A stretch of 32,320 bases of DNA from Trichocoleus sp. FACHB-46 (GTDB taxonomy: Bacteria > Cyanobacteriota > Cyanobacteriia > FACHB-46): the NCBI RefSeq assembly GCF_014695385.1, contig NZ_JACJOD010000051.1, positions 1 through 32,320 of the forward strand. The letters run 5' to 3'. Made by a program: the position numbers and the translations under genes. Numbering within the stretch: the first letter of the stretch is position 1; every line of letters begins with the position of its first letter. The notes below the pieces were generated by a model. The model was not told where the DNA came from. It did not search any database and saw only the letters and a list, made by a program, of their open reading frames with translations. This document shows, piece after piece, positions 9,279-31,494 of this stretch.

Positions 9279-10091
9279 TTACTCTTCCTGCTGCTGGTGG
9301 AATAGAGCTTGAAGTTCTGTTCTCAAGGCAGCAATTTCTGCCTGTAACTCTACGATCGCTTTTGCCCCTGCAACCTCAGCCTCCGGATTTTCAGCATCCT
9401 GACCCACAAAGAATGTGGCAAGGGTCGCTGCAACATAACCGAACACAGCAAAGGCATAGAGTGCTAGCAAAAAGCACAGTAACCTTCCCTCCGGAGTCTT
9501 TGGAAAGTAATCTGACCCCATCGTAGTCATCACCATTGCCGTCCACCAGAGTGCTGTGCCGTAATCGGTTAAGGCAGATTCAGGAACCTCACGCTCGAAG
9601 GCATACATTCCAGCAGCACCAATCAAAGTGGCGATTGCTGTTAGCCCAATGACATATCCCAACCCCCGTCGATTAACGCTTGCAGCTAAAACACGCATAC
9701 CTCGATTAGTTCGGGTCATCACTCTAAGGAATCGTAAGCCTCGAACTGCACGAACCGTTTGGAATGCTCGCAAAACTTTCACTACTCGTAGAACCCGTAG
9801 AGCTGGCAGCATCAGTGAAAGCATCGTTAGCCAGTTCTGTTTCAGGTAGGCCAGTTTCTGAGGAGCCAGAAAAAACTTTAGCCCGAAATCCAGAATAAAT
9901 AGCACCCAGATGGTAATGCCCAACACGTCCAAGAGCGGTGAAAGCCCCCAGATTAACTCAACTACAAATAGTGCCAACCAGACAAAGCTGAGGATTAGCA
10001 TGGGAATTTCCAGCCAATTCTCAAGCTGTTGCAGAATTTCACTTTGCTCTTGTTCTAGGGCACGCTTTGTTAAGAAGTTTGGATTACTCAT
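9279..10091 (-). CDS. Voltage-sensor-type ion channel with atypical selectivity filter
   Basis: 270 residues from ATG 10091. The ion-transport fold is clear: helices at about 30-50 and 55-77, an Arg/Lys-rich S4-like segment at about 97-127 (RVLRVVKVLRAFQTVRAVR, with basic residues at roughly every third position), a pore helix WWTAMVMTTMGSDYFP at about 182-197, and a last helix before a Glu/Ala-rich coiled-coil tail (about 230-270). Where K+ channels have TVGYG, this protein has TMGSD, so selectivity should not be assumed. An alternative start is TTG 10130, which overlaps the upstream stop as TTGA and would add 13 residues. It is transcribed after the DUF389 gene and probably forms a two-gene unit with it. 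Confidence 0.82.
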   Translation of the reverse strand: MSNPNFLTKRALEQEQSEILQQLENWLEIPMLILSFVWLALFVVELIWGLSPLLDVLGITIWVLFILDFGLKFFLAPQKLAYLKQNWLTMLSLMLPALRVLRVVKVLRAFQTVRAVRGLRFLRVMTRTNRGMRVLAASVNRRGLGYVIGLTAIATLIGAAGMYAFEREVPESALTDYGTALWWTAMVMTTMGSDYFPKTPEGRLLCFLLALYAFAVFGYVAATLATFFVGQDAENPEAEVAGAKAIVELQAEIAALRTELQALFHQQQEE

Positions 10092-10126
10092 AAAATTTGG
10101 TTCATTACAAATTATGGTCGGGAGGT

Positions 10127-11149
10127 TCAAGGTCGGGTAGGTAAACGAGGTGCTTCGGTTCGTCTGACTTCTTTTACCTCACTGACTGTAAAGATGAGGG
10201 TAAAAGGTCGCCCCATTTCTCGTTCTACAAAGGCTTCTAAGAGCTGTACTTGCTTCGGCGTGATGGGTTCCTGCGATCGCACACTCAATCGCACTTGAGG
10301 TGGTTTGCTTAACCAATTCGTGTCGATGTTTAACAGTTCCAAGCGTTGAAATGTGAGCGTACGATTGATCAACGCTTTTTGCAGGCTACTCTCTAACTGG
10401 GTTTGACGAACTAATTCAGCAAAGCCAATACTCAGTGGCAATATCAGGGCAATGGTTAGAGCGGCGGTCCAACCAAGTGCCTTGCGGGCTTGATGAAGTG
10501 GAGTGTAGCCTGCTAGCAGAAACGTCAGCATACAGGATAGGGTGATACCAAGCAGATTGGTGAGATAGAGCAAAGCTGCTCCGACACTGAGCGACCACTC
10601 TCTTTGTGCTAACCCGAGCCCAATGACACAGATGGGCGGCATGAGGGCAACGGCGATCGCGGTTCCTGCTAAACTGCCTGAGATTTTAGGCTGAACTTTG
10701 GCATAGCCACTAATACCACCGGCTGCAACCGCAATTCCCAAATCTAGGAGCGTCGGTTTTGAGCGGGATAATACCTCGCTGCCAAAACTAGCAATACCCA
10801 CTAACAACCCTAAACTCCAAGCTAAGACAATTGCCAGCAGTGTTCCGACCAACAATGAAATTAATCCTTTGCGAAAAAGCACTACATTTCCTTCGAGGGC
10901 TCCAAAGGCTAGTCCTCGAATCGGCAACATTAAAGGAGCAATAATCATGGCACCAATAATGACGGCAGTACTGTTGGTCAGCAGCCCAAAGGTAGCGATC
11001 GCACAAGAGCCAACGAGCAAAATTAAGTAGCTGGCACCGAGAATAGATTCCTCTAGCAATTCAGTCTGTAATTGCTGAAGTTGCTGGGATTCTACTCGCT
11101 TTTTTCCCATCAGTCGAAAGCGATCGCGAATGCCTTTTATTCTAAACAC
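10127..11149 (-). CDS. DUF389 membrane protein
   Basis: 340 residues. The DUF389 core is plain: NSTAVIIGAMIIAPLMLPIRG at about 59-79, then several helices and the segment GYAKVQPKISGSLAGTAIAVALMPP. It ends in a soluble ~80-residue domain. Family function is not established. The start is GTG 11149, with a weak GAGAAAAG upstream; ATG 11110 would lose 13 polar residues. Its stop overlaps the possible TTG start of the channel gene, suggesting co-transcription. A second, longer DUF389 protein lies at 17037-18320 and differs in domain order. Confidence 0.85.
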   Translation of the reverse strand: MFRIKGIRDRFRLMGKKRVESQQLQQLQTELLEESILGASYLILLVGSCAIATFGLLTNSTAVIIGAMIIAPLMLPIRGLAFGALEGNVVLFRKGLISLLVGTLLAIVLAWSLGLLVGIASFGSEVLSRSKPTLLDLGIAVAAGGISGYAKVQPKISGSLAGTAIAVALMPPICVIGLGLAQREWSLSVGAALLYLTNLLGITLSCMLTFLLAGYTPLHQARKALGWTAALTIALILPLSIGFAELVRQTQLESSLQKALINRTLTFQRLELLNIDTNWLSKPPQVRLSVRSQEPITPKQVQLLEAFVEREMGRPFTLIFTVSEVKEVRRTEAPRLPTRP

Positions 11150-11379
11150 AAATCTTTTCTCATTAAATTAATTCTCTACTAATCGAAAACTGAGCTGTAG
11201 CCATTTCTTTTACTTCCCTCCGTCTCCCTCAATATTGTGCCATCACCTCTAGAGATTAACTAACACTAATCATGCACAGTTCTTACTGCTGATAATTATA
11301 AAAATAGGATAAACCCTTCTTGGTTTAAGATTAATCAGATTATTACTTTTCCCTAATTTTGTAGTGCAAAGCTAAATAG

Positions 11380-11396
11380 TGAAATCAGGATGAAAT
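11380..11396 (+). promoter_or_regulatory. Operator-like direct repeat, upstream pair (mscS side)
   Basis: TGAAAT at 11380-11385 is repeated exactly at 11391-11396, a spacing of 11 bp centre to centre. Two half-sites one helical turn apart is the standard arrangement bound by OmpR/PhoB-type response regulators. Its best match elsewhere in the window is the pair at 21877-21893 next to rppA. Confidence 0.55.
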
Positions 11397-11457
11397 GTTT
11401 ATCTATCTTTTGAACATGAGTGCTAAAGATGTCTCATTCTAAGGATTTCATAAAAAA

Positions 11458-11474
11458 TGAAATCAGCATGAAAT
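11458..11474 (+). promoter_or_regulatory. Operator-like direct repeat, downstream pair (mscS side)
   Basis: TGAAAT at 11458-11463 and again at 11469-11474, joined as ATGAAATCAGCATGAAATC. The start is 78 bp after the first pair. The corresponding pair near rppA (21954-21970) reads ATGAAAACAGCATGAATT and sits 77 bp after its own first pair. Confidence 0.55.
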
Positions 11475-11698
11475 CTCTTCAGGCTCTAAGACAGAGGTTT
11501 TTAGTCTATCGTAAGCATGAAGAAAAGAGCACTTTAAATTCTTATATTGAAATGACCCGAAAGAACTGAATTAACCTAAGCAAAATGGTTAGCCTAAAGA
11601 AAAGAATTAATAAAAATCAGTCATTTTCCTTTTGAAACTTTGTTAACAGAAAATATATTTGAGCTGGAGATAACCCAGAAAGTCATTAAAGAGGAGTT

Positions 11699-12703
11699 AT
11701 GAATCTAGAAATATCTACAGCTTGGGCTAAAGTTCAGGGAATGATCAATGGTGCGATCGCCTTGTTACCGAATATTGGCTTAGCGCTGATTGTTTTCCTT
11801 CTCTTTATATTTATAGGGGAATGGATTAAAAAGTTAGTCAAAAAATTAACTCGCAATCGTCGTCAGGCACGCAACTTGGGCATGGTGCTGGGACGCTTAG
11901 CTCAAGGATTCACAGTCTTGATGGGATTGTTTGTAGCCTTATCTATTGTGATTCCTACCTTTAAGGCAGGCGACTTGGTACAACTGCTAGGGATTAGTGG
12001 GGTCGCAATCGGGTTTGCGTTTCGAGATATCCTGCAAAATTTCTTGGCAGGGATCTTGATTCTCTTAACGGAGCCGTTTCAAATTGATGACCAAATTGTC
12101 TTTAAAGACTTTGAAGGCACCGTTGAAAATATTGAAACTCGCGCCACTACTATCAGAACCTATGATGGTCGTCGTATTGTCATTCCTAATGCCGAGTTAT
12201 TTACCAATTCAGTCACAGTCAACACAGCTTTTGACAATCGCCGTTTGCAATATGACGTAGGCATTGGCTATGGAGATGATATTGACCGAGCTAAACAACT
12301 AATTCTAGAAGCGATCGCCAGTGTACATGGGGTCTTGAAAAGCCCTGAGCCTGATGCCTTAGTCATGGACTTAGCAGATAGTACGGTGAAGATTCGTGCC
12401 CGTTGGTGGATTAACCCACCGCGTCGGGCTGATGCGCTTGATATGCAAGACCAAGTGCTGACTGCAATTAAGAATAAACTCACTGCCAACGGCATCGATC
12501 TCCCTTTTCCAACTCAACAAATTCTTTTCCATGACCAAACCGAAGAAACCGACGGCGACCGCTCCCGTCAACGCGAAGGCTGGCCTGCGGGCAAACGCGA
12601 GGTGCCCAAGCCCCGGAGCATCAGCGGTTCTTTGCGGCAACTGGCTGAAATGCGGGCACAGCGGAACGGCAACAGCCACACTCAATCAACTGATGAGTTA
12701 TGA
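11699..12703 (+). CDS. MscS-family mechanosensitive channel
   Basis: 334 residues. Three helices are expected at about 20-42, 65-88 and 93-124. The third, pore-lining helix reads LLGISGVAIGFAFRDILQNFLAGILIL and leads into EPFQIDDQIVF, a textbook MscS TM3/beta-domain junction. The beta domain carries VENIETRATTIRTYDGRRIVIPNAEL (about 143-168). The C-terminal ~60 residues are charged and low in hydrophobicity, beyond the usual MscS vestibule. MscS channels open under membrane tension to release solutes during osmotic downshock. The start ATG 11699 has AGAGGAG four bases upstream. It overlaps the DUF2254 gene by 4 bp. The two operator-like repeat pairs lie about 225-320 bp upstream. Confidence 0.92.
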   Translation: MNLEISTAWAKVQGMINGAIALLPNIGLALIVFLLFIFIGEWIKKLVKKLTRNRRQARNLGMVLGRLAQGFTVLMGLFVALSIVIPTFKAGDLVQLLGISGVAIGFAFRDILQNFLAGILILLTEPFQIDDQIVFKDFEGTVENIETRATTIRTYDGRRIVIPNAELFTNSVTVNTAFDNRRLQYDVGIGYGDDIDRAKQLILEAIASVHGVLKSPEPDALVMDLADSTVKIRARWWINPPRRADALDMQDQVLTAIKNKLTANGIDLPFPTQQILFHDQTEETDGDRSRQREGWPAGKREVPKPRSISGSLRQLAEMRAQRNGNSHTQSTDEL

Positions 12704-14079
12704 AAAGTATCAAGTGGAGCAAGCTTTGGGACTCGCTCCACTCTAGTTATTGGTTTTTGCCAACTGTGATGGCCGTGGCGGCGATCACCCTAGCATTCGC
12801 AATGTTGGCGATTGATCGGGCTTCTCAGGAGAACATGAAGCAGCTCAAATGGATCTACACAGGTGGGCCTGATGGGGCGCGAGCACTACTCTCCGCCGTT
12901 GCTAGTTCCATGATCACAGTTGCCGCAACCGCATTTTCAATCACGATCATTGCGCTTCAGCTTGCGGCTTCCAATTTTGGGCCTAGGTTGCTGCGTAACT
13001 TCATGCAAGATACTGGAAACCAACTAGTTCTAGGGACTTTCATTGGCACCTTTATTTATTGCTTACTGGTTCTGCGAACCGTCCGGGGAGAAGACTATGC
13101 TCTGTTTGTACCCCAGCTATCGGTAACTGTGGGCATTGTGCTCGCCATCGCTGGCGTAGGTGTCTTAATTTACTTTATTCATCATGCTTCTACGATCATT
13201 CAGGCATCTCACGTTATTGCGGGTGTGAGTCATGATTTAGATGAAGCGATCGAGCGATTATTTCCAGATCAGCTTGGGCATGGTGTCCCGTCCAGATCAG
13301 ACCGAAACATTGAAGAAATCCCGGCAAATTTCGACTCAGAGGCGTACCCAGTCAAAGCTTCTAGAACGGGTTATATACAAGCGATCGATAACCGAGAGTT
13401 GCTCAAGATTGCCTGCAAACACCACCTACTGCTACGGCTTCAGTGTCGCCCTGGTCAATTTATTGCCCAGGGTAGGGAACTAGTGCTGGTTTATCCCGCC
13501 AAGCATGCGCTCCCAAAACTAACAGAACGACTGAATGATGCTTTCATCGTGGGCAATGAGCGCAATGAGCAACAGGACGTAGAGTTTCCGATCAATCAAC
13601 TGGTAGAAGTGGCACTTCGGGCTATTTCTCCGGCGGTGAATGATCCGTTTACAGCCATTCGTTGCATTGATCGAATTGGGGCTGCATTGTCTCGCCTTGC
13701 CCAACAGGAGTTTCCTTCTCCATATCGCTACGACCACCAAGGAACCCTGCGTGTGATTGCCGAGGGAGTCACGTTTGAAGAGTTAGTGGATTCTGCCTTT
13801 AACCAAATCCGGCGATATGCCAAATCGGATGCTGCCGTCACGATTTGTTTGCTCGAAGCGATCGCCACTATTGCCTCGACTACAGGCAATGCCAAACAAC
13901 GAGCAGTTTTGCGCTGTCATGCTGAAATGATTCAGCGAGGAAGCCGTGAAGGTTTATCAGAAGAACTAGATCGGCAGGCTGTAGAGCAGCAATATGACAA
14001 GGTTATTACCAAGCTGGCTCAGCAAAGTCATCAGGTTGGGTTATTAAATCAGAAACATACTCATGATTCACGAGAGTAA
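12700..14079 (+). CDS. DUF2254 membrane protein
   Basis: 459 residues. The N-terminal ~165 hold four membrane helices, with the family segment SAVASSMITVAATAFSITIIALQLAASNFGPRLLR at about 65-99; the remaining ~290 residues form a large cytoplasmic part. The second recognisable block is AISPAVNDPFTAIRCIDRIG near 308-327. Function of the family is unknown. It overlaps mscS by 4 bp and is followed by a YjdF-like gene after 5 bp, so the three form one unit in which a role in envelope or osmotic stress is a reasonable inference from context only. Confidence 0.85.
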   Translation: MKSIKWSKLWDSLHSSYWFLPTVMAVAAITLAFAMLAIDRASQENMKQLKWIYTGGPDGARALLSAVASSMITVAATAFSITIIALQLAASNFGPRLLRNFMQDTGNQLVLGTFIGTFIYCLLVLRTVRGEDYALFVPQLSVTVGIVLAIAGVGVLIYFIHHASTIIQASHVIAGVSHDLDEAIERLFPDQLGHGVPSRSDRNIEEIPANFDSEAYPVKASRTGYIQAIDNRELLKIACKHHLLLRLQCRPGQFIAQGRELVLVYPAKHALPKLTERLNDAFIVGNERNEQQDVEFPINQLVEVALRAISPAVNDPFTAIRCIDRIGAALSRLAQQEFPSPYRYDHQGTLRVIAEGVTFEELVDSAFNQIRRYAKSDAAVTICLLEAIATIASTTGNAKQRAVLRCHAEMIQRGSREGLSEELDRQAVEQQYDKVITKLAQQSHQVGLLNQKHTHDSRE

Positions 14080-14084
14080 GACTA

Positions 14085-14687
14085 ATGTTTAGTACCAACT
14101 GGCAAGGATATAGAACAGCGGCTTGGATCGGAGCAGCTTTACTGGCAGCCACAGTCGTTGCTGCATGCATGCAGGGCAATTGGGGTAATGCTCTGTCCCT
14201 CGCCTGCTTTCTATTAGCTTTCTTAGCCTTTATGTTCCTCGCTAAGCCACTACCTACATTATTTGATTTTTTATTCGTCGTGGCAGCTCTCCTGAATGCA
14301 GGAGGTTGGGTGTGGGGATGGTTCTACCTGCCTGGAATATACGATGAGGCAGTTCATGGCTTCACTATGTTTGCTATTACTCTGGCACTTAGTTTTCTCA
14401 CTTATGGTTCTGTGCTGCCAACGTTTCATGAACATAAGCTGTTATATCTAGCCGCGATCGCCAGCTTTGGCATTGCGATTGGAGCACTTTGGGAAATTGC
14501 CGAATGGGCGGCAGGAAATGTTCTCCCGGCTCAAGTTATTGGTAGTGTGGATGACACGATCATTGATTTAGTGATGGATACCTTAGGGTCCGGGCTAGCA
14601 GCCCTAACTAGTCTATGGGCATTAGAAGAAAGAGTACATTCTAGAGGAGCAACTCATCGGCGATCGCGATCGCGGAGCCATCTCTAA
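14085..14687 (+). CDS. Small polytopic membrane protein, YjdF/DUF2238-like
   Basis: 200 residues with six or so membrane helices. Conserved-looking acidic and His residues occur in membrane-adjacent blocks: GIYDEAVHGFTMFA at about 84-97, GALWEIAEWAAG near 132-143 and DDTIIDLVMDTLGSGLAAL near 151-169. This arrangement (D/E-x-x-H, W-E-x-x-E, D-T-x-x-D-x-x-x-D) resembles the DUF2238 (YjdF) family, but I have not confirmed it. The last residues are an Arg/Ser-rich tail encoded by overlapping GCGATCGC/CGATCG repeats. It is the third gene of the mscS group. Confidence 0.65.
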   Translation: MFSTNWQGYRTAAWIGAALLAATVVAACMQGNWGNALSLACFLLAFLAFMFLAKPLPTLFDFLFVVAALLNAGGWVWGWFYLPGIYDEAVHGFTMFAITLALSFLTYGSVLPTFHEHKLLYLAAIASFGIAIGALWEIAEWAAGNVLPAQVIGSVDDTIIDLVMDTLGSGLAALTSLWALEERVHSRGATHRRSRSRSHL

Positions 14688-14993
14688 ACGTTTCTACACT
14701 ACATTTCACAGAAATCTCTAAATGTGTTTTGATCTAAATCAAAATATTGCATTTCTCCTAAAAATATAATTTTGGGAGGTTTTAATTTTTTAATGAGATC
14801 AATCAGATTGTAATTTTTTTAGTTAAATAGGGATATGTAGATGTAAAAGTATACCGCTTGCTACATAAAGGTTCTGCCCTTGTATGTCCTATTTGCAAAA
14901 CAGAATTTAGCATATCTCTTTCGATAGCAGGATTTATTAAATTCATATCCTTTCTAATATGGATACAAGAAAATAAATTGGAGAAAATACATT
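14688..14993. other. AT-rich intergenic region upstream of the PRC-barrel gene
   Basis: 306 bp without a gene. It contains an FNR/CRP-like palindrome near its left end (listed separately) and presumably the promoter of the stress protein gene. No ORF with a ribosome-binding site was seen. Confidence 0.5.
14729..14742. promoter_or_regulatory. TTGAT-N4-ATCAA palindrome (FNR/CRP-family-like site)
   Basis: TTGAT (14729-14733), four bases, ATCAA (14738-14742); the symmetry extends to TTTTGAT/ATCAAAA. This is an exact match to the classical FNR/ANR half-site arrangement. It lies 42 bp after the YjdF-like gene and about 250 bp before the PRC-barrel gene. FNR-type regulators are not universal in cyanobacteria, and an AT-rich context raises the chance of a coincidence. 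A weak terminator of the upstream gene is the main alternative. Confidence 0.35.
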
Positions 14994-15821
14994 ATGACTT
15001 TGATGAAACTCAAAGACTTTTACCCTAATTCTCACGAAGACTCATCTAACGCAGAAGACGTCAAAGACTTTGATGTTTACACGCAAAGCGATGAGAAGAT
15101 CGGTTCAATTGAACATATTTTAGTGGATGATCAAAGTGGCCGCTTTCGCTACTTTGTGGTTGACACGAGATTCTGGATTTTTGGTAAAAAAGTGTTGTTG
15201 CCTGTCGGGCGCGCTGCTATTAATTACACCGATCGCCGAGTCGAAGTCAAAAGCTTAACAAAGCAACAGGTCGAAGATCTGCCTAACTTCGATGATCTCG
15301 AAAAAGCAGATTATGACTACGAAGAACAGGTGCGAGGAACGTATCGTCCTGCTACGAGTGCTGCCACCAACTACGATCGCGATAGCTATAACTATCAGCA
15401 AGAACCCTCCTTGTATGACTTGAATGATCGCGATCATCAAAGCTTAAAACTTTATGAGGAGCGACTCATTGTCGACAAGCACAGGGAAAAAACTGGAGAA
15501 GTCTCGATTGGCAAACGAGTAGAAACGGAGACAGCACGAGTGGCTGTTCCAGTTGAAAAAGAGCGCATCGTGATCGATCGGACGACCCCAGCTACAGGTG
15601 CTGCTGTTGATTCCAGCAATGTCAACTTTGGCAACCAGGAAGCAGTACGGATGGAAGTTTACGAAGAAACTGCTGACATCCACAAAGAAGCCTTTGTGCG
15701 AGAGCAAGTTAATGTCAGCAAGGTTGTAGAAAAGGATACTGTGAACGCTGAAGAGAAAATCCGTCGGGAAGAACTAGATTTAGATAGGCAAGGTCGCTCA
15801 GTTGTAGATAAGCGTCGCTAA
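14994..15821 (+). CDS. PRC-barrel and DUF2382 domain stress protein
   Basis: 275 residues, soluble and strongly charged. Residues ~20-95 form a PRC-barrel (FDVYTQSDEKIGSIEHILVD, then RFRYFVVDTRFWIFGKKVLLPV). A Tyr/Asp-rich linker (about 105-145) follows, then a DUF2382 domain from ~150 with LKLYEERLIVDKHREKTGEV and the repeated V-x-K-E / R-E-E-L pattern to the end. Proteins of this architecture are common in cyanobacteria and Deinococcus-like bacteria and are usually linked to desiccation, heat or oxidative stress; the molecular role is unknown. The start ATG 14994 has TGGAGA about nine bases upstream. It is likely a single-gene unit ended by the hairpin at 15853-15888. Confidence 0.88.
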   Translation: MTLMKLKDFYPNSHEDSSNAEDVKDFDVYTQSDEKIGSIEHILVDDQSGRFRYFVVDTRFWIFGKKVLLPVGRAAINYTDRRVEVKSLTKQQVEDLPNFDDLEKADYDYEEQVRGTYRPATSAATNYDRDSYNYQQEPSLYDLNDRDHQSLKLYEERLIVDKHREKTGEVSIGKRVETETARVAVPVEKERIVIDRTTPATGAAVDSSNVNFGNQEAVRMEVYEETADIHKEAFVREQVNVSKVVEKDTVNAEEKIRREELDLDRQGRSVVDKRR

Positions 15822-15852
15822 CGCTAGATCGCTCTAGGTTCATCATTTTGTA

Positions 15853-15895
15853 GGGCTAAAGCCACTTTAAGGAGTGTGCTTTTAGCTCTATTTCT
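15853..15895 (+). terminator. Probable terminator after the PRC-barrel gene
   Basis: A long imperfect hairpin: GGGCTAAAGCCACT (15853-15866) pairs with AGTGTGCTTTTAGCTC (15873-15888) with two single-base bulges and a 6-nt loop. It is followed by TATTTCTTTAT. It lies 32 bp after the stop codon. Confidence 0.6.
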
Positions 15896-15996
15896 TTATA
15901 AGATTAAGAGACCTAACGCTAAAAACATACATAGCTATGGAACGCCAGCAAGACTGGTGGGCGATCGCTCAATATCCCTGATCGAGAGGTAAACTT

Positions 15997-17040
15997 GTGC
16001 GTTTAGGGCAGTGGATTGGTTTTCTTGCCCTCATTATCTCGCTTTATATCCTCTGGAGAATCCGGCAAGTACTGTTGTTGGCATTTACGGCTGTGGTTTT
16101 AGCAACTGCGCTCAATCAGCTCGTAAAGCGCCTGGAGCAGCGAGGAATTCATCGAGGCATTGGTATTGCTCTAACAATTACTAGTGTTCTGATTGCTCTA
16201 GCGGTTCTAGTAGCGCTAATTGTTCCTCCTTTCTTTGAGCAGCTACCCGCGTTGACCGAAGGAGTACCCAGAGGATTAGACCGTTTTCGGGCCTGGTTTG
16301 AAACGTTACGTAGCCGAATTCCAGGGCAGGCAGATGATGAAATTAGTATCTTTACCCAACTGACTCAACAACTACCAGATTTTATTAGTCGGGTGTTTGG
16401 CAATTTTTACGATTTATTTACTTACTCAGTCGAAATTATCTTGAACTTGTTGCTGGTTCTAGTTGTCACCATCATGCTACTGGCAAATCCCAGCGCCTAT
16501 CGACAAGTCTTCTTGCTGCTTTTTCCCAAGTTTTACCACCAGCGGATCGATAAGATTCTCTTAGAATGCGAAATCGCTTTAAGTGGCTGGCTAGTAGGCA
16601 TTCTATTTAATATGACAGTAATTACGGTTCTGAGCGGATTGGGTCTGTGGCTTTTAGGCATACCTTTGCCCTTAGCAAACGCTTCGCTCGCAGGGTTACT
16701 CACGTTTATTCCCAATCTCGGACCGACCCTCAGTGTGGTTCCTCCCGCTGCTCTTGCCTTGCTAGGCGCTCCTTGGAAAGTGGGAGCAGTGGTAGGACTA
16801 TATATCGTCATTCAACAAATTGAGAGCAATGTTTTAACTCCCTTGGTGATGAAGCATCAGGTTTCCTTACTGCCAGCCATCACTCTCTTAGCCCAAGTTG
16901 CTTTCTCTATCTTCTTTGGGTTTATGGGTTTGCTGTTAGCGCTGCCTTTGCTGGTTGTGGCTCAAGTCTGTCTAAAAGAGGTACTGGTTGAAGATGTCAT
17001 GAGCCATTGGGAAAGCAACGAAGCAGATCAAGATAGCTAA
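15997..17040 (+). CDS. AI-2E family permease (PerM-like)
   Basis: 347 residues. The N-terminal helices, an extended soluble segment at about 85-135, and then five or more C-terminal helices match the AI-2E/PerM family. The signature GLLTFIPNLGPTLSVVPPAALAL at about 234-256, followed by IQQIESNVLTPLVM, is the family hallmark. Substrates are mostly unknown: some members export the quorum signal AI-2, others act as Na+(Li+)/H+ antiporters, which would fit this neighbourhood but is not shown. The start is GTG 15997 with GAGAGGT six bases upstream. The stop overlaps the stop of the convergent DUF389 gene by 4 bp. Confidence 0.88.
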   Translation: MRLGQWIGFLALIISLYILWRIRQVLLLAFTAVVLATALNQLVKRLEQRGIHRGIGIALTITSVLIALAVLVALIVPPFFEQLPALTEGVPRGLDRFRAWFETLRSRIPGQADDEISIFTQLTQQLPDFISRVFGNFYDLFTYSVEIILNLLLVLVVTIMLLANPSAYRQVFLLLFPKFYHQRIDKILLECEIALSGWLVGILFNMTVITVLSGLGLWLLGIPLPLANASLAGLLTFIPNLGPTLSVVPPAALALLGAPWKVGAVVGLYIVIQQIESNVLTPLVMKHQVSLLPAITLLAQVAFSIFFGFMGLLLALPLLVVAQVCLKEVLVEDVMSHWESNEADQDS

Positions 17041-18320
17041 GAGTGGTTGGGTGGTTCTAGAACACTGACATCAATGAGGGGAGTTACATTAAATCCTTGG
17101 TTGACCAGATGGGTTTGGATATCTTGAGTTAATTGAGTACGAATTGCTTCTGTAGGCTGTTCTATCCCTCGTTGTCGCTGCACATATACTGTCCCCAGCA
17201 AGGTATTTTGGCCTTTAATATCAGGACGGGTGAAGCGAACATTGGCCTCTACTAAACTCGCTAAGCCGCTTTGATTAACCACCTTCTGAATTTCAGCGGT
17301 CGCTCGTTGCGAACGGCTGGAACGTTGTAGGTTGGGCGAGCTGGCAAATTGCCAGGTAAGCAGTCCCGTCAAAGCTGCCGTTGTACCTACTAAAATAGCT
17401 GGAAACGCCCAAGCTTGGCCTCGTTGATAGCGAGCTCCCTGAGCAGAGATGCCGTAGAGCCGAAACACGATCGCAGCTGATAGATTGATGCCGACCAGTT
17501 GTAGCAACAGGACAAAAATACCATTCACAGCCAAGTCCCAGCGTCCCATGGCGCCTGCCATCCCAACCAGACCAGCCGGAGGTGCCAAGGAAGCTGCAAC
17601 CAGCATCCCAGTTGCAGCCCCAGAGACCAAGCTACTACGCTCAGACTGCACCAGATTTAAGGCTCCCGCCGCACCTGCAATAATGGGTAGCATCACAGCA
17701 ACAGCAGAAATTGTACTCGTTGCTGCCATCTGCTCTGTTACAACTTCTTGGCGTAGAACCAAGGTAAGTAGCCCCGTTACAGCGATCGTAACGGCTAAGG
17801 CAGAAAAATATCTCAGCAGACTACGGCCTAAGAGATGGCGATCGCCTCGCGCAGTAGCCAGCGCCACATTCATAGCTGGCCCCGCAAAGGGAGCGATTAA
17901 CATAGCTGCAACTAACAGATAGCTGGTACTGGTAAACAACCCAATCCAGACCACGACTCCAGCCGCCGCTGCATATCCTAAAAAACCTTTCCAAGAGCCA
18001 ACGCTTTGCAACCCAGAGAGAAACACTTCAATGGGGCTACGGACTGCTACATCTGTGACTTGCTGTGCCGCTTCATCCGCAGGTGGTTTTAATCCCATAA
18101 CTCCACGGGGATTGAGCGTAATCTGAAGATTGGGCAGCCCTTCTAGCGCTTGCATCAGAGCTTCAACTTTGCGGTTGGAGATATGAATAATCACCACATC
18201 CAGCGGTTCCTCAGTCCCCGTCGCTTCAAATAAGGCTAGGTTCGCTCCATCATGAGCTTTGGCCGTATTTAAGACCTCTTTTCCGCATCCTCGTGGAACT
18301 TGCACGAGTATTTGGCGCAT
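17037..18320 (-). CDS. DUF389 membrane protein with N-terminal soluble domain
   Basis: 427 residues. Residues 1-~75 form a soluble alpha/beta domain (MRQILVQVPRGCGKEV...). The DUF389 core starts at about 110 with several helices, including YLLVAAMLIAPFAGPAMNVAL (about 134-154) and AVMLPIIAGAAGALNLV, then a C-terminal soluble region of ~100 residues. It is longer than and arranged differently from the DUF389 protein at 10127-11149, so they are distant paralogues. Function is unknown. It is convergent with the AI-2E permease gene, with overlapping stops. The start ATG 18320 is followed by a good coding pattern. Confidence 0.85.
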   Translation of the reverse strand: MRQILVQVPRGCGKEVLNTAKAHDGANLALFEATGTEEPLDVVIIHISNRKVEALMQALEGLPNLQITLNPRGVMGLKPPADEAAQQVTDVAVRSPIEVFLSGLQSVGSWKGFLGYAAAAGVVVWIGLFTSTSYLLVAAMLIAPFAGPAMNVALATARGDRHLLGRSLLRYFSALAVTIAVTGLLTLVLRQEVVTEQMAATSTISAVAVMLPIIAGAAGALNLVQSERSSLVSGAATGMLVAASLAPPAGLVGMAGAMGRWDLAVNGIFVLLLQLVGINLSAAIVFRLYGISAQGARYQRGQAWAFPAILVGTTAALTGLLTWQFASSPNLQRSSRSQRATAEIQKVVNQSGLASLVEANVRFTRPDIKGQNTLLGTVYVQRQRGIEQPTEAIRTQLTQDIQTHLVNQGFNVTPLIDVSVLEPPNHS

Positions 18321-18457
18321 GACACTTGCTCCTAACGTATTCCTTGATGGTCGTCAATGGTTTAATCAATGTCTTAATCCAATCGGAGATCGGTGACTAA
18401 TAGCTATACCGTTATGTAGATTTCTCTTTATTTTTAATCCGATATGGTTTCTTCAGG

Positions 18458-18474
18458 GCAACTACAAAAGTTGC
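18458..18474. other. Short hairpin in the intergenic region
   Basis: GCAACT (18458-18463) and AGTTGC (18469-18474) form a 6-bp perfect stem with a 5-nt loop, between the divergent DUF389 and small-ORF genes. No T-tract follows. The role is unknown. Confidence 0.3.
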
Positions 18475-18616
18475 GGTTGCTTCCTCATCGCCTCGATACA
18501 GTATCACAATAGGTACGATCGCTTTTGTATCTAGCATTGAGCGAATAGAACTTTAATCTCAAAACGCATTAGTTCAAAGCGCATTGGTGGGATAGCAACA
18601 CTCAAAGGTATGTGAA

Positions 18617-18781
18617 ATGAGTGAAAAACGTCCTAGCAACATCATCATCAAAGTATTTTGGTCGCTTGTCATTCTCCTAGCAGCCTTTGTCATCGGTAGC
18701 TTGATGCTCACATAGAGTAAAGCAGTCGATCAAGAATTGGAAGATACTCAATCGCTCATCCAAAGCTTCATCCAGAGCTAG
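18617..18781 (+). pseudogene. Small single-pass membrane protein, frame interrupted by TAG
   Basis: ATG 18617, preceded by AAGGT, opens a 32-residue protein (ending at 18715) with a polar start (MSEKRPSN) and one hydrophobic helix (VFWSLVILLAAFVIGSLMLT). After the TAG at 18713-18715 the same frame stays open for another 21 codons, SKAVDQELEDTQSLIQSFIQ, a polar helix-like tail, to a TAG at 18779-18781. Two readings are possible: a complete 32-residue membrane microprotein, or a ~54-residue protein broken by one nonsense change. I cannot name a family. It is not explained by any other gene on either strand. Confidence 0.45.
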
Positions 18782-19169
18782 GGATAGAGTAACATTTGCA
18801 TGATCGGACATGCGGGTAGCCTACGGAGTTACCTCAACCGTTTCACAAGTACATACCGGAACTTAGAATATCCTCGTGATGCGCTGGGTAGACTAACTAC
18901 ACCCTTTGGACACCTCCACGTTAAGGGCGGCTCTAGTATTTATTCCGCTTCTAGTTTATTGGAATCTGCTAGGTGGAGCAGGTCTAGCGGGAAGTTGATG
19001 AATTGAGTGCGATCGCACTGTTGGCAGAAATCATCGACAGCGCATAAGAGGTCTTCTAAACTAAGCATAGGATGAGTATCAGCAGCTTGGAACTTCAATA
19101 CTTTCAGCCTACCTACTCATCTTCTACTTATCCCAACAAACTCACGTTAGATTACTCGCCAGGTTGTTG
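18782..19169. other. Intergenic stretch with decayed coding-like sequence
   Basis: No intact gene. A plus-strand frame of 18800-19006 is open but has no ribosome-binding site and no recognisable protein. In other frames there are coding-like pieces, such as LVFIPLLVYWNLLGGAGLAG (about 18938-18997), followed after a frame change by EVDELSAIALLAEIIDSA (about 18992-19048). This may be the remains of a small membrane-protein gene, but it is too short to identify. Confidence 0.3.
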
Positions 19170-19721
19170 ATGCGAATACTTAGCTTTTCGAGTTTAAGCT
19201 CTAAGATAATTTTCGTCACCTTATTTTTTCTGTTGTTTTTCCTGTCTTTGTTTAGTTATTTTTTTAATCAACTATTGATTTTATTTGTATGTTTTTCCAT
19301 TATTCTCGGATTGGTTCAGGGTATTAAACTTAGTAGAGGTGGCTTGAGGAGAACCCTGATCGCATCAATCATTTTAGTTGCTTTGTGAGGTACTTATAAC
19401 GTGAGCCCAAGAATTAACTTCTGGATGACAGCGTCGGCTCGCCAAAGTGTGGTTAATCGTATGATTTCAAATAATGCTATCCCAACTCAATACGAGGTAG
19501 TTCTAAAAGACAGCCCTATAGAAAACTTACTATTGGGGCAGGCTACAGCATACATTGATCGAAATTATCATTCGGTCTATTTCAATTATTATAAAAAAGG
19601 ATTCAATCAAGCAGCATTCTTTATTTATACAAGTGATCCAAATAGGATTGATCCTCGTTACATTCAATTAAAACAATTAAAAAACAATTGGTTTTTCCTA
19701 CTCAGAGGCTATGCCGATTAA
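19170..19721 (+). pseudogene. Small membrane protein gene split by an in-frame TGA
   Basis: ATG 19170 opens 72 codons ending at TGA 19386-19388. They encode two hydrophobic helices rich in Phe/Leu and then a third hydrophobic start (TLIASIILVAL). Directly after the TGA the same frame continues for 110 codons to the stop ending at 19721, giving GTYNVSPRINFWMTASARQS and a polar C-terminal domain (to RGYAD). Since both parts share a frame and the break falls at the end of a helix, one gene of ~183 codons with a nonsense change is the simplest reading. The alternative is a second gene starting at GTG 19401, with GAGG ten bases upstream. No family recognised. AT-rich relative to its neighbours. 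Confidence 0.5.
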
Positions 19722-19752
19722 GATAACGTTTACTTCTTATTGTTTTAGTAAT

Positions 19753-21126
19753 TTATTCTAGAGGCAAACGCACGGTAAATGTGCTGCCCTTACCAAGTTC
19801 ACTGCGTACTTGAAGGGTGCCGCGATGGGCCTGAGCGATCGCTAAAGCAATGGGTAAACCTAAACCAGAACCGCCGGTGTGCCGCGATCGATCTTGTTCT
19901 ACTCGATAAAAGCGATCGAAAATTCGGACTTGGTCAGCTGGAGCAATTCCTAGCCCTGTGTCCTGCACTTGCACAATGGCGTATTGTTCATCCCTGTTTA
20001 GCGAAACCCTAACTTGTCCTCCCGTGGGCGTTGCTTGAATTGCATTGTTAATTAAGTTGCAAACCAAACGATAGAGCTGTTCTTCGTCGCCTAAAACATA
20101 GACGGATGTAGGCACCTGTAACTGCATCGAGAGTTCCACCGCCTCTTTAACCGCTAAAAAAGCGAGTTCTTCTATCAAGTCGCTGATTAAATCATTCAGG
20201 CAGCAAGCGAAATGCTTTCCTGTCAGTTTACGCTGGTCAATGCGGGTTAACAGTAGGAGATCCTTAACCAACTCTGAAAGGCGTAGAGTTTGTCGTTGTA
20301 GGACGGCTAAGGCTCCTCCTGCCGTCTCTAAAGTAGAGCTTTCAGACTTACTTTGAAAGCGTAACGTCGATTCGATCGTGGCTTGCATGGCAGCGAGCGG
20401 CGTGCGAAACTCGTGGGCAGCATCGGCAGTGAACTGCTGCATTTGTTGATAAGAGCGATAAATCGGTTGCATTGCGAGTCCCGCTAGCCACCAACTAGAC
20501 CAAGCCACGAAGAGCAGCGCGATCGCACACCCCAGCAGCAACGTCCAACGTAAGGCAACCAAATTTTGGTCTAAGTCTTGGAGCGATCGCCCCACCTGCA
20601 CATAGCCTCCCGGCTGCTTTTGTATCTGTAGGGGTAAGGAGACTTGGCGATAGCGAATTCCCTGCCGATCCGTCAATGTTTGCCATTTTGCTTTTCCCGA
20701 CGTGCTAGGTAATTTGTCTATCTGTAGCCCCATCACCACAATGGGTCTTCCCGTTGAATCTATTAAGCGGATGTAGTAATTGATGGGGTCGGGTACACCG
20801 ACTAGGGGAGGCCGAATGACTTCAGGAAGTTGAGCTGCTTTAGTAGCTTCAGTAGTAGGAATACAATCTGCTTCAGCGAGACATAACCGCAAGGAGAGAT
20901 TTTCAGCCACCTGACGTAACTGCTCTGGTCGCTGTATAACAGGCTCGATTCGTTTGGCCACAACCCCTGTAACCGCTTGCAATCCTTGGTCAATGGTTCG
21001 GCGGTAGGCCTGGGCAACCACCTGATAAACTCCAAAACCAGATACCCCCATGATGCAAGCCATAACCCCAGCGTACCAGAGAGCCAAACGCAGACGAGTT
21101 GAACCAAAGAGTTGATTGTCTTTCAT
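19753..21126 (-). CDS. rppB: Sensor histidine kinase RppB-like
   Basis: 457 residues. N-terminal helix at about 12-35, a periplasmic sensing domain of ~155 residues, and a second helix at ~195-217. The dimerisation domain has the H-box FTADAAHEFRTPLAAMQ with H238. The ATPase domain shows the N-box (CNLINNA, 356-362), G1 (DTGLG, 389-393) and G2 (GGSGLGL, 418-424). The start LFGSTRLRLALWYAGVM is the typical RppB opening. In Synechocystis, RppB/RppA (also NrsS/NrsR) respond to nickel and redox state; the signal here is not known. The sensing domain has a Cys pair (C82, C88) that could bind metal or form a disulfide. It lies 3 bp after rppA, so they are co-transcribed. Confidence 0.88.
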   Translation of the reverse strand: MKDNQLFGSTRLRLALWYAGVMACIMGVSGFGVYQVVAQAYRRTIDQGLQAVTGVVAKRIEPVIQRPEQLRQVAENLSLRLCLAEADCIPTTEATKAAQLPEVIRPPLVGVPDPINYYIRLIDSTGRPIVVMGLQIDKLPSTSGKAKWQTLTDRQGIRYRQVSLPLQIQKQPGGYVQVGRSLQDLDQNLVALRWTLLLGCAIALLFVAWSSWWLAGLAMQPIYRSYQQMQQFTADAAHEFRTPLAAMQATIESTLRFQSKSESSTLETAGGALAVLQRQTLRLSELVKDLLLLTRIDQRKLTGKHFACCLNDLISDLIEELAFLAVKEAVELSMQLQVPTSVYVLGDEEQLYRLVCNLINNAIQATPTGGQVRVSLNRDEQYAIVQVQDTGLGIAPADQVRIFDRFYRVEQDRSRHTGGSGLGLPIALAIAQAHRGTLQVRSELGKGSTFTVRLPLE

Positions 21127-21129
21127 GGC

Positions 21130-21819
21130 TCATCCATCCAGGTTAAAGCGATAGCCTACACCGTAGATGGTTTCAATCATAGTCCCCTCATCTTCCAACT
21201 TGCGGCGGAGTAGACGAACTTGGGCGGCAACAACATTGCTCACAGGTTCAGCCCCCACTTCCCAAAGCTGGTTCATGATTTGATCGCGGTTCACAATTTG
21301 GTTGGGATGCTTCATGAAGTATTCCAAGAGCTGAAATTCTTTTATGGTTAGAGGAATCGCCTGGCGATCGCCATTCACATCTTGCCGAACGACTGCGTGA
21401 GTTCCATAGTTGAGCGTTAAATTGCCAGCTCGGAGTTGAGGCGGCTGGATCTGAGGCGATCGTCGCCGCAACGCCCGCAGTCTTGCCAGCAGTTCTGCCA
21501 TCTGAAAAGGCTTAACCAAGTAGTCATCTGCACCACTATCAAGCCCTTGAATCTTTTCCTCCATGCGGTCTTTTGCCGTCAGCATCAAAACAGGGAGTGG
21601 GCTATTTTGGGCACGTAGTCGTCGGCACAACTCCACCCCTGACAGCCCTGGCAACATCCAATCAAAAATTGCCAACGTGTACTCAGTCCAATGTGCTTCT
21701 AGATAATTCCAGGCTTGCGTGCCATCCAGCACCCAGTCCACCACGTAGGTCTGGTGATTCAGAACTTGTTTAATGGCTGCGCCTAAATCGGCTTCATCTT
21801 CAACTAATAGCAGTCGCAT
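21130..21819 (-). CDS. rppA: OmpR/PhoB-family response regulator RppA-like
   Basis: 229 residues. The receiver domain has the acidic pocket E7-D8, phospho-acceptor D53 (LAIFDWMLPG), T81 and K103 (LVKPF). The C-terminal winged-helix domain (about 130-229) includes LTIKEFQLLEYFMKHPNQIV and the recognition-helix stretch VVAAQVRLLRRKLE, ending in the beta-hairpin ETIYGVGYRF. Such proteins bind direct repeats about 11 bp apart. The pairs at 21877-21893 and 21954-21970 lie just upstream of this gene, so autoregulation is possible. I chose ATG 21819; an in-frame TTG at 21825 would add two residues. It heads the rppAB operon. Confidence 0.9.
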   Translation of the reverse strand: MRLLLVEDEADLGAAIKQVLNHQTYVVDWVLDGTQAWNYLEAHWTEYTLAIFDWMLPGLSGVELCRRLRAQNSPLPVLMLTAKDRMEEKIQGLDSGADDYLVKPFQMAELLARLRALRRRSPQIQPPQLRAGNLTLNYGTHAVVRQDVNGDRQAIPLTIKEFQLLEYFMKHPNQIVNRDQIMNQLWEVGAEPVSNVVAAQVRLLRRKLEDEGTMIETIYGVGYRFNLDG

Positions 21820-21876
21820 TATCAATAACTTTGTTTCTTATTAAAATCCCTTAATTACAAGGTATTTACAGAATAG

Positions 21877-21893
21877 TGAAATCACTATGAAAC
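21877..21893 (+). promoter_or_regulatory. Operator-like direct repeat, first pair (rppA side)
   Basis: TGAAAT (21877-21882) and TGAAAC (21888-21893), 11 bp apart. The surrounding TAGTGAAATCACTATGAAAC matches the first mscS-side pair, TAGTGAAATCAGGATGAAAT, in 17 of 20 positions. It lies 58 bp from the rppA start codon. Confidence 0.55.
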
Positions 21894-21953
21894 TCCTCTC
21901 TTCCATTGGATGTAAATACCAATAGCTTACGTATAAAAGGCTTGAGTTAATAA

Positions 21954-21970
21954 TGAAAACAGCATGAATT
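21954..21970 (+). promoter_or_regulatory. Operator-like direct repeat, second pair (rppA side)
   Basis: TGAAAA (21954-21959) and TGAATT (21965-21970), 11 bp apart, in ATGAAAACAGCATGAATT. It is the counterpart of the mscS-side pair at 11458-11474 and is followed 12 bases later by TATAAA. Confidence 0.5.
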
Positions 21971-22169: not shown

Positions 22170-22811
22170 ATGGACCAGCAAACTCATTTAATTCGGAGAA
22201 GATTTGGTCTACTAGGAACGATCTGTGGAAGTTTATTGGTGGGTCTACCTACGATTTCCTGGGCTAGCCCATCTGTCCCTAGAGTACTCAATCCATGCCC
22301 TGGCATTTATTATGAGGAGCCCTACAACAGCACAAAGTTAGTTCCTAGAGGTTGCCCCTCTAATGCGGCGACTCGGCTTCTAAGCGAGCAAACTCAATTG
22401 CCACACCAGCAGGTTATTGTGGTTCCTTCTAGAATGCCGATGCTTCCTCTAGCCCAACCAATAGCACAACCACCACTCCCCATCAATAGAGCGGAGCCGA
22501 TCGCGACTGTAACGCCTATGGCAGGGAAAGTGGACGTGAGGTTGAAAAATAACACTAACACTCTCATTAGTTATGAGGCGATCGGATATACGCAGCGTCG
22601 TTTCTTGGTCGCAGGAGCAGAAGCTACCTTGAGGCTACCGACCCCTGCAACCATCACGATGGTACGGCAGGACGAGGGTCTCTTGGAAGTGATGTCAATG
22701 CCCACTTCTAGAAGCGGAATGTTGGCAGTATCGCTCGATGAAACAACCACTTTAAGGGATAACCAAGGCATCTTGAGAATTCAAACAGATGGTCAAGTCT
22801 TCTTGAACTAA
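22170..22811 (+). CDS. Exported protein of unknown function, RppAB-linked
   Basis: 213 residues. The N-terminus has Arg residues (LIRRRFG), a hydrophobic core (LLGTICGSLLVGLPTISWA) and a likely signal-peptidase site after SWA or SWAS, so the mature protein is probably periplasmic. Next comes a conserved-looking block with two Cys, NPCPGIYYEEPYN...PRGCPSNAA (about 42-66), a Pro-rich linker (about 85-110), and a beta-rich C-terminal half beginning VDVRLKNNTNTLISYEAIG. I do not recognise a named domain, though the CPGIYYEEP block occurs, as far as I recall, in other cyanobacterial hypothetical proteins. The start ATG 22170 has AGGAGA about six bases upstream. It shares the upstream region with divergent rppAB and is a candidate RppA target. 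Confidence 0.8.
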   Translation: MDQQTHLIRRRFGLLGTICGSLLVGLPTISWASPSVPRVLNPCPGIYYEEPYNSTKLVPRGCPSNAATRLLSEQTQLPHQQVIVVPSRMPMLPLAQPIAQPPLPINRAEPIATVTPMAGKVDVRLKNNTNTLISYEAIGYTQRRFLVAGAEATLRLPTPATITMVRQDEGLLEVMSMPTSRSGMLAVSLDETTTLRDNQGILRIQTDGQVFLN

Positions 22812-22951
22812 ACCCATAGAAATCAAGCAACTTAGGTGTGAACAGATTTTTTGTTAACTGTTTTGACCTAGCCGTTCTACCTTAATTGGTCTGAACCTAA
22901 CCAACAGTGAACTCAAAAGTTCTTTGATCATAATAACGGAGTGAAAATCCC

Positions 22952-23818
22952 ATGAATCGCTGCACAATCTCTAATCACAATAACTTGGCTCAAAAGCTGT
23001 GGAAAGCTAATAGAACACTGCCTACAGGAATTGCCCTAGCCCTGATGGCTTTAATCCTTCCTGCTTGCACGGATGGACGGCAAGAAGCGGCTGCCCCGCC
23101 CCCTGCGGGAAATGTCACGACTGAGGAAGTTGCCAATGAGACTAACCGCTTGATTGGACAGACGGTGACCATTAGAAGCAAGCCAATCAAGAAAATTGGC
23201 CCTAACACGTTCACCGTAAGCGATGAACAGTTCTTTGGTACTGAATCAATTCTGGTCGTGAATGCTTCAGGCGCAACCTTTGCTCTACCTGCTGACGATG
23301 ATGTTGAGGTGCAAGTCACAGGCCAGGTTCGCAACTTTGTCCTAGCAGAAGTTGAACGTGAGTTTGACTTAGACTTAGACCCTGAAGTGTATGTTGAGTA
23401 CGAAAGCAAGCCCGCCATTATTGCTCAAGCGATCGCCCTAGCCCCCAAACCGGGCACAATCACCGAAGATCCTCAGCGGTACTACGGCAAGGCGTTAGCA
23501 GTCACAGGTGAAATCGAAGACGTTAGAAGCCCAAACTCCTTCACGCTGGATGAAGATCAGTTGTTTGGTGCCACTGATTTGCTGGTCTTACGAGCCAATC
23601 CTAAGGCGGGAGCCCCAGCTGTAGCCCCCGTAAAGGATGGCGAAACTGTGGCGGTAACGGGTGTATTGCGTCCCTTCGTCGTGGCTGACATTGAGCGAGA
23701 CTATGACTTAACTTGGGATTTAGATTTGCAGAAGAAGCTAGAAGCGGAGTACAGCCAAAAACCTGTACTAATTGCTGATGCTGTCTATCCTTCCGCAATT
23801 CCAGACGTTGCCAAGTAA
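22952..23818 (+). CDS. Lipoprotein with two tandem beta-rich domains
   Basis: 288 residues. A Lys/Arg-containing start, a hydrophobic stretch (ALALMALILPAC) and a lipobox-like LPAC put the lipid-modified Cys at C39. The mature part has two related halves of ~100 residues. Each has a segment of the form G-x-x-x-x-V-x-G/S-x-I/P ... N-T/S-F-T-V/L-x-D/E-x-Q-L/F-F-G-T/A-x-x-L-V, at about 68-105 and 172-208, followed by ERDYDL/EREFDLDL. This indicates an internal duplication of an OB-fold-like domain. It probably sits in the cell envelope. The start ATG 22952 has GGAGTG about nine bases upstream. A stable hairpin follows the stop. Confidence 0.82.
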   Translation: MNRCTISNHNNLAQKLWKANRTLPTGIALALMALILPACTDGRQEAAAPPPAGNVTTEEVANETNRLIGQTVTIRSKPIKKIGPNTFTVSDEQFFGTESILVVNASGATFALPADDDVEVQVTGQVRNFVLAEVEREFDLDLDPEVYVEYESKPAIIAQAIALAPKPGTITEDPQRYYGKALAVTGEIEDVRSPNSFTLDEDQLFGATDLLVLRANPKAGAPAVAPVKDGETVAVTGVLRPFVVADIERDYDLTWDLDLQKKLEAEYSQKPVLIADAVYPSAIPDVAK

Positions 23819-30948: not shown

Positions 30949-31485
30949 AGCCCACCAGTTCTTGAATAATTTGCTGAGCGAGTTGGAGCTTGGTTTGGTC
31001 AACATCATCCGGCTTAAGTCGGCGTTTCGGCTTAAACACTTTGAACAGTAAGGGAAAGGCAAGAGCGCCCAGCACGCCGTAAGCATTGACCGAAACCCTG
31101 CCATTGTCTACTTTGCCCACATTGCTGATGTGCTGCCGCTCTACATAATTCGTCGTCTTTCTTTTTTGCGGTCTCCGGTGTCATCAAGGACAAGGACAAT
31201 CAGTTGCCCCTGAATTTGTTCGATAATTAAAGACAGACGTTGATAGCGTACTGCTTCTACCTGCCAAGGGGAGTGAGTCAGGAAATGGTGTAGCACTTGG
31301 TCATTTGGCAAGCCTACAGCTTTGGCAATTTCGGGTAAGGACGTGCGAGCTAGAGGAGCGACCAAGCCAAGATGTAGAGAGGCGAATGCTTCAAAACTGC
31401 GGACATCGTTAAACAGATGTCGGTAGGCTTGACAGTAGTTATCGACAAAACGAACCGTGAAGTAAGAGAGACGAGGTGCAATCAT
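30896..31485 (-). pseudogene. IS701-family transposase, frameshifted and truncated
   Basis: From ATG 31485 (GTG 31494 is an alternative) one frame encodes the N-terminal region typical of cyanobacterial IS701 transposases: VRFVDNYCQAY, SLPEIAKAVGLPNDQVLHHF, SPWQVEAVRYQRL and the catalytic-Asp block VLVLDDTGDRKK. It stops at 31141 after the A6 run at about 31165-31170. The -1 frame then continues in register as RKTTNYVERQHISNVGKVDN...VNAYGVL to about 30945. So one base is missing, or -1 slippage on AAAAAAG occurs. The second half of the transposase is absent: similarity ends near the LLM gene stop, and the frame runs to 30896 inside that gene. A dead element is most likely. Confidence 0.8.
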
Positions 31486-31494
31486 CCCAACCAC

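Follow-up and report, generated by a model that had tools for sequence, protein, structure and literature searches.

What acts on the four direct repeats carried by a 32,320-nucleotide contig of Trichocoleus sp. FACHB-46 (NZ_JACJOD010000051.1; the window, by which we mean this whole stretch), and which genes respond? The repeats lie in two intergenic regions, A and B, with rppA and rppB, the genes of a two-component response regulator and its sensor histidine kinase, encoded between them. We find that the repeat is a real, conserved predicted operator of the CopR/RppA type, that its two-box arrangement is new, and that it goes with a distinct RppAB clade and with membrane-channel genes. The four sites are probably operators of the RppAB encoded between them, which would tie the membrane-channel genes to the same signal. 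Genomes, contigs and loci are given by our own G, C and L numbers, the window genome being G000.

The four sites, each 17 bp and of the form RTGAAA-N5-ATGAAW, start at 11379, 11457, 21876 and 21953. An earlier note on this DNA had described four half-site pairs with 11-bp spacing, the pairs starting 78 and 77 bp apart, and the window letters bear this out, with TGAAAn half-sites at 11380/11391, 11458/11469, 21877/21888 and 21954/21965 and start-to-start distances of 78 bp in region A and 77 bp in region B. Read on the other strand, a site is TTTCAT-N5-TTTCAT. TTTCAY occurs twice, with half-site starts 11 bp apart, in three of the four; the first half of the remaining one, B2, is ATTCAT. Box A1 (11379–11395, minus strand; GTGAAATCAGGATGAAA on the plus strand, TTTCATCCTGATTTCAC leftward, towards DUF389) stands 229 bp before the start of the DUF389 open reading frame (ORF), and A2 (11457–11473, minus strand; ATGAAATCAGCATGAAA, leftward TTTCATGCTGATTTCAT) stands 78 bp from A1 with the mscS start 225 bp away on its opposite side. 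Box B1 (21876–21892, minus strand; GTGAAATCACTATGAAA, leftward TTTCATAGTGATTTCAC) is 56 bp before the rppA ATG at 21819, and B2 (21953–21969, minus strand; ATGAAAACAGCATGAAT, leftward ATTCATGCTGTTTTCAT) is 77 bp from B1 with the start of an exported-protein gene 200 bp away on its opposite side. An additional window match at 22941–22957 is weak and overlaps the gene that begins at 22952, at its start codon. Compared by eye, regions A and B have no clear similarity outside the boxes, and duplication of the entire control region is therefore not supported.

A chance origin of the sites is ruled out by shuffles, by genome counts and by tests outside this genome. With up to one mismatch, RTGAAANNNNNATGAAW has six window matches against 1.03 expected, and none of 100 dinucleotide shuffles reached six. 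Exact matches to this loose pattern number 11 in the 6.56-Mb genome (reversed control, 4), five of them on the 32-kb window contig. The tighter pattern RTGAAAWCANNATGAAW matches 15 times genome-wide with up to one mismatch (control, 3) and five times exactly, four of these inside the window, so that the motif is not at background. Both patterns were derived from the window sites themselves; tests in other genomes are free of that circularity. The fifth exact RTGAAAWCANNATGAAW match (C76:109873) lies upstream of a copper-efflux operon with a copRS of its own: first a DUF305 gene, then RND-efflux-like genes, rppA/copR and rppB/copS.

The window box is a CopR/RppA-type box, not new in kind and known from cyanobacterial copper resistance, because it is present at copM and copB and is enriched both around rppA/copR genes and in genomes that encode them. 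TTTCAT-N5-TTTCAT was reportedly described in 2012 by Giner-Lamia as the CopR box of Synechocystis. The pSYSX cop region of that organism (L123; 14,672 bp) contains two sites, one 50 bp upstream of copM and the other 41 bp upstream of copB, the two reported targets of CopR, and the pSYSX protein labelled RppA by PGAP is CopR. According to a review, CopR binds the copMRS and copBAC promoters (PMC4284471); another paper describes a copM promoter of 72 nt with two direct repeats and a distance of 26 nt between the transcript start and the start codon (PMC4890671). Across 80 named rppA-family loci (930,099 bases), a relaxed pattern found 133 sites and its reversed control 2; in the 400 bp before rppA, 35 sites had TTTCAT towards rppA and one the opposite orientation (control, 0). 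Among 388 genomes of the class, 173 have a strong RppA/CopR, and RTGAAATNANNATGAAA occurred in 141 of these (383 sites; control, 19); of the 215 others, 50 had it (69 sites; control, 21). Strong here means a best E of at most 1e-98, a threshold set after the values had been seen. The odds ratio is 14.5 (p ~1e-31, kinship ignored), and the control showed no difference.

Like those of the window, the CopRS operators of Synechocystis PCC 6803 are TTTCAT-N5-TTTCAT about 40–56 bp before a start codon, and the Synechocystis regulator is 64% identical to the window RppA, with the same helix stretch. Unlike Synechocystis CopRS, the window has an RppB outside the CopS clade, boxes 77–78 bp apart and linkage to membrane-channel genes. 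No DUF305 (copM) or RND efflux genes were seen among the window ORFs, and both are present at C76.

Half-sites placed head to tail at 11 bp are typical of the direct repeats of PhoB/OmpR-type regulators, for example the Pho box, and the earlier assignment of the window repeat to this type is supported. The half-site itself, TTTCAT/TGAAA, differs from that of the Pho box. The HLR1 consensus of RpaB is KTTACAWW-NN-KTTACAWW; matched to this consensus with up to three mismatches, the window has six HLR1-like sites against 8.46 expected, none at the boxes. The repeat is unlike both the HLR1 and the Pho box, but its kind was already known, as the CopR-type box. A different OmpR-type regulator (RpaB, ManR or a further paralogue) is very improbable as the user of the window sites. 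The genome is rich in OmpR-like paralogues, and related repeats (ATGAAAGGAATATGAAA) precede Mn/Zn-transporter-like genes, so that half-site specificity overlaps; the HLR1-like sites, however, show no excess, and the box tracks rppA/copR in presence among genomes and in placement among loci.

Which RppA/CopR paralogue, then, would bind? The window rppA (21130–21825, ATG at 21819, minus strand) encodes an OmpR/PhoB-type response regulator with Response_reg and Trans_reg_C domains and scores 397 bits against NCBIfam NF041734 (cut-off 250); rppB (19753–21126, minus strand), the sensor histidine kinase gene, scores 568 bits against NF041735 (cut-off 400), and its clade was assigned by tree. A tree of 84 RppB rows, all longer than 380 aa, has a 100/100 split into two clades: the window RppB falls among 30 of the rows, and Synechocystis CopS and the own-genome paralogue on C76 fall among the other 54. 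Since the tree puts the window RppB and the C76 paralogue in different clades, the genome encodes both a CopRS (C76) and an RppAB of a separate clade. Of 21 RppA/CopR rows from both clades, 18 retain the stretch SNVVAAQ[VIM]RLLRRKL, presumably the recognition helix (L171, L206 and L109 differ by one residue), so RppA and CopR may both read the same half-sites. Because the own-genome CopR stretch, SNVVAAQIRLLRRKL, differs from that of the window RppA by V/I only, RppA is not the sole candidate binder. The earlier naming of RppA as the regulator thus gains from the enrichment of the box around rppA-family genes but has to admit the genome's own CopR beside it.

We consider it unlikely that the window sites are bound mainly by the CopR of contig C76, which would make the contig part of a copper response. 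C76 does have a box of this kind at a DUF305-RND-copR-copS operon, and the two helix stretches are the near-identical pair just given. However, the box pairs adjoin rppAB and occur in genomes with the window RppB clade, from which the CopS clade is separate, and pair spacings in the CopS clade differ (139, 190–204 bp and more). DUF389, mscS and DUF2254 are also absent from all 55 loci outside the window clade (50 placed with CopS by the tree, five unplaced).

A sequence difference between the boxes of the two clades was also considered. Before rppA, the site starts with G in 10 of 14 window-clade sites against none of the 21 sites of the other 55 loci. A rule by which GTGAAA marks the window clade and ATGAAA the other was dropped: GTGAAA also occurs beside RND-efflux-like genes (identified by eye) in G053, G124 and G213, 4 of 102 sites of other loci start with G, and the rows are mutually related. 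Among 17 RppB/CopS rows whose start is complete, 14, from both clades, have a C-x5-C motif in the sensor part. Its occurrence in the window RppB, in common with CopS, raises the possibility of metal or thiol sensing.

A count of 187 sites in 2.24 Mb (control, 3), in which loci L244–L258 had been chosen because they hold a site and so are not a random sample for spacing, gave seven same-orientation pairs less than 130 bp apart: one of 67 bp, four of 77 bp and two of 78 bp. The 77-bp pairs, each before rppA, are those of window region B, G001, G151 and Nostoc sp. 106C; the 78-bp pairs are window region A and one at a DUF1400 hydrolase gene of G151, and the 67-bp pair is again in G151. The six pairs at 77 or 78 bp are all in genomes with the window RppB clade, and the next same-orientation distances, 139 bp and more, are in loci of the other clade. 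The comparison of orthologues proposed in the earlier note shows the pair at rppA in G001, G151 and Nostoc sp. 106C; among the loci examined, no further mscS gene has a pair of its own. Of 24 window-clade loci, 13 have an exact proximal box, often at a constant position upstream of rppA. A distance of 77–78 bp is about 7.3–7.4 turns at 10.5 bp per turn, and therefore the paired boxes are not simply on one face; 77 bp is also seven 11-bp half-site steps. In Nostoc upstream regions the proximal box is followed by an inverted third half-site, TTTCAC-N6-GTGAAA, which is not intact in the window.

The window RppB clade is linked to channel genes in relatives. Within the stretches compared, DUF389, MscS or DUF2254 is nearby in 9 of 25 named window-clade loci (L044, L049–L053, L056, L061 and L068; L044 and L055 were assigned to the clade by identity alone) against none of 55 others, among which L062, L077, L090, L116 and L119 are counted although unplaced by the tree. 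In Nostoc, rppAB is linked to DUF389, mscS and DUF2254. At least 8 of the 388 genomes have a window-clade RppB, with four candidates scored per genome; of the five outside the genus (G017, G053, G072, G094 and G151), four encode a close DUF2254, compared with 68 among all 388, and the distance from RppB to DUF2254 is below 20 kb in G151 and G094. The gene order in G151 is rppB, an HPP-family gene, rppA, a box pair, an exported protein, a further gene, mscS and DUF2254. There, the orthologue (46%) of the window exported protein at 22170 has two boxes upstream, spaced at 67 bp and oriented as in the window. In relatives the box is also found upstream of genes that neighbour rppAB, one for a ClC channel and one for a DUF2231 protein (L227, L228). 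In 77 DUF2254 or rppB loci (1.09 Mb) we counted 13 sites (control, 1), 12 of them in the six loci with rppAB and one in the other 71; none of 45 mscS-DUF2254 loci without rppAB and with enough upstream sequence has a box within 600 bp upstream of mscS.

Which of the flanking genes are the likely targets? Leftward of region A are a DUF389 membrane protein gene (10127–11149, minus strand; PF04087) and an ion channel gene (9279–10130, minus strand; Ion_trans, PF00520) that overlaps the DUF389 gene end. Rightward are an mscS-type mechanosensitive channel gene (11699–12703, plus strand; MS_channel domains in Pfam), a DUF2254 membrane protein gene (12700–14079, plus strand; PF10011) overlapping the mscS end, and a gene for a 200-aa protein (14085–14687, plus strand), called YjdF before, which has no Pfam or NCBIfam match and follows DUF2254 in other genomes too. 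Rightward of region B are two putative exported proteins (22170–22811 and 22952–23818, both plus strand); the G151 orthologue of the second lies opposite rppA across the box pair. The earlier note related the pairs to the plus-strand genes. Their polarity is the same in both regions, but in the copM/copB orientation, with TTTCAT towards the gene, both pairs point leftward, to rppAB and to DUF389-ion channel. Because of this, rppAB autoregulation appears to be the best supported target, where it had been put forward as merely possible. The rightward genes are neither the only nor the best supported targets, and action in the opposite orientation may occur, in view of how the boxes are oriented at the G151 exported-protein orthologue. 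By gene context, mscS-DUF2254 and the exported protein are still plausible RppA targets, in keeping with the boxless mscS loci that lack rppAB, the boxes at the G151 orthologue and the Nostoc linkage.

The sites themselves, the box enrichment near rppA/copR genes, the pair spacing, the linkage of genes and the clade split come directly from the sequences; we infer that this RppA binds, that its effect is activating and not repressing, and which genes and signal are involved. RppB would sense an envelope signal and phosphorylate RppA, molecules of which would bind head to tail on the TTTCAT-N5-TTTCAT common to the CopR/RppA family. At B1, RppA most likely activates rppAB itself, because B1 lies upstream of rppA at a distance of 56 bp and is oriented like the copM box; the second box 77–78 bp farther out (B2, A2) would complete the two-box module. 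Less surely, RppA at region B may activate the exported-protein genes on the far side, and at region A it would likewise act on DUF389-ion channel, on mscS-DUF2254 or on both. With region B between rppA and the exported-protein genes and region A between DUF389-ion channel and mscS-DUF2254, RppA most likely controls one or both directions in each region.

Several observations weigh against operators of RppAB that extend to the channel genes. The boxes in region A are 225–229 bp from the mscS and DUF389 starts, farther than at rppA or copM, and a sigma-70-like promoter scan beside the boxes found nothing above shuffle level. Boxes directly beside mscS were observed only in the window, with no second example of an mscS pair; in G151 one box pair stands before the whole row from exported protein to mscS, and in Nostoc the DUF389/mscS genes downstream of rppB have no box of their own. 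G001 has the rppA pair and no DUF2254, and G002 has neither rppAB nor DUF2254. Among the window-clade loci with enough upstream sequence, 11 of 24 lack an exact box within 400 bp before rppA, and most of those with the proximal box lack the distal one at 77 bp. RTGAAATNANNATGAAA also matches the 50 genomes without a strong RppA mentioned above. Finally, the motif quoted for Synechocystis RppA in a 2026 review, from Yu et al., is AAMAWCTCYYWCCCC (PMC13421787). Taken as quoted there, it is at chance in the window (14 matches against 13.05 expected with up to three mismatches, none with fewer than three) and differs from the window box, even though the window pair carries the same NCBIfam names as Synechocystis RppA/RppB (NrsR/NrsS, Rre33/Hik30); the quoted motif was reported for the chromosomal RppA of Synechocystis (sll0797), and Synechocystis is represented in our clade tree by CopS.

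The long distances at mscS and the want of another observed mscS locus with its own pair also favour a narrower arrangement, in which control stops at rppAB and the gene just across, region A is a remnant or acts on DUF389-ion channel only, and mscS does not belong to the targets. The TTTCAT orientation, pointing to DUF389 and rppA, agrees with it. We nonetheless doubt it, since the region A pair is intact, at 78 bp, in a space common to mscS, and since mscS is within the rppAB neighbourhood in G151 and Nostoc. Control by RppAB of itself and of channel genes on one or both sides of region A remains the reading we prefer.

Some further features were noted around these loci. The second exported protein seemingly consists of two copies of one domain (IGQTVTIRS...FFGTESILVV and YGKALAVTG...LFGATDLLVL). 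A transposase-like fragment lies at 31141–31494, near the contig end; the genome is fragmented, and the window is one of its contigs in full (32 kb). The contig is perhaps an island, because G001 has only part of it and G002 is without rppAB and DUF2254. A bacteriorhodopsin-like gene is beside rppAB in G094 (L206, 5108–5854; Pfam), and in Nostoc sp. 106C a look-alike, judged by eye (L047, 4990–5748), and rppA flank the box pair. In the window genome, two copies of ATGAAAGGAATATGAAA, spaced at 34 bp, stand upstream of a metal-binding ABC-transporter gene (L001/L002; G000:C6:510493 and 510527), and ATGAAAAGAATATGAAA before a UPF0016/Mnx-like gene (L004; G000:C30:330898); both are found also in G001 and G002, the genes having been named by eye. 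They may represent a box read by a manganese regulator, for instance ManR. In L248–L251 (G053, G124 and G213), boxes precede several copper-type gene groups, again identified by eye, and for this reason some Leptolyngbya-like genomes may have a CopR regulon that extends beyond the two known operons.

Little has been reported on how mechanosensitive and related channel genes are switched on in cyanobacteria, and a single literature search on mechanosensitive channels, DUF2254 and two-component systems taken together in this group found no paper. The CopR/RppA-type box was known; its two-box arrangement, linked to an RppAB clade and to membrane-channel genes, is new and suggests that a little-studied two-component system controls channel genes besides itself. 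More tentatively, and with the odds somewhat against it, this RppAB clade, sister to the copper-sensing CopRS with the same box, may have turned to an envelope or osmotic signal, controlling itself together with DUF389, MscS and DUF2254 (in relatives ClC and HPP) through the 77–78-bp module, with the spacing and not the box keeping it apart from CopR. If the sites are indeed operators of RppAB, the finding would name a regulator, an operator and a target list for channel genes, and would cast doubt on the RppA motif as quoted in the current review (PMC13421787). It would also pose a problem of cross-talk, with two paralogous regulators of near-identical DNA-contact stretch and one box in one cell, for which the fixed 77–78-bp spacing would be a candidate for what separates RppA from CopR action.

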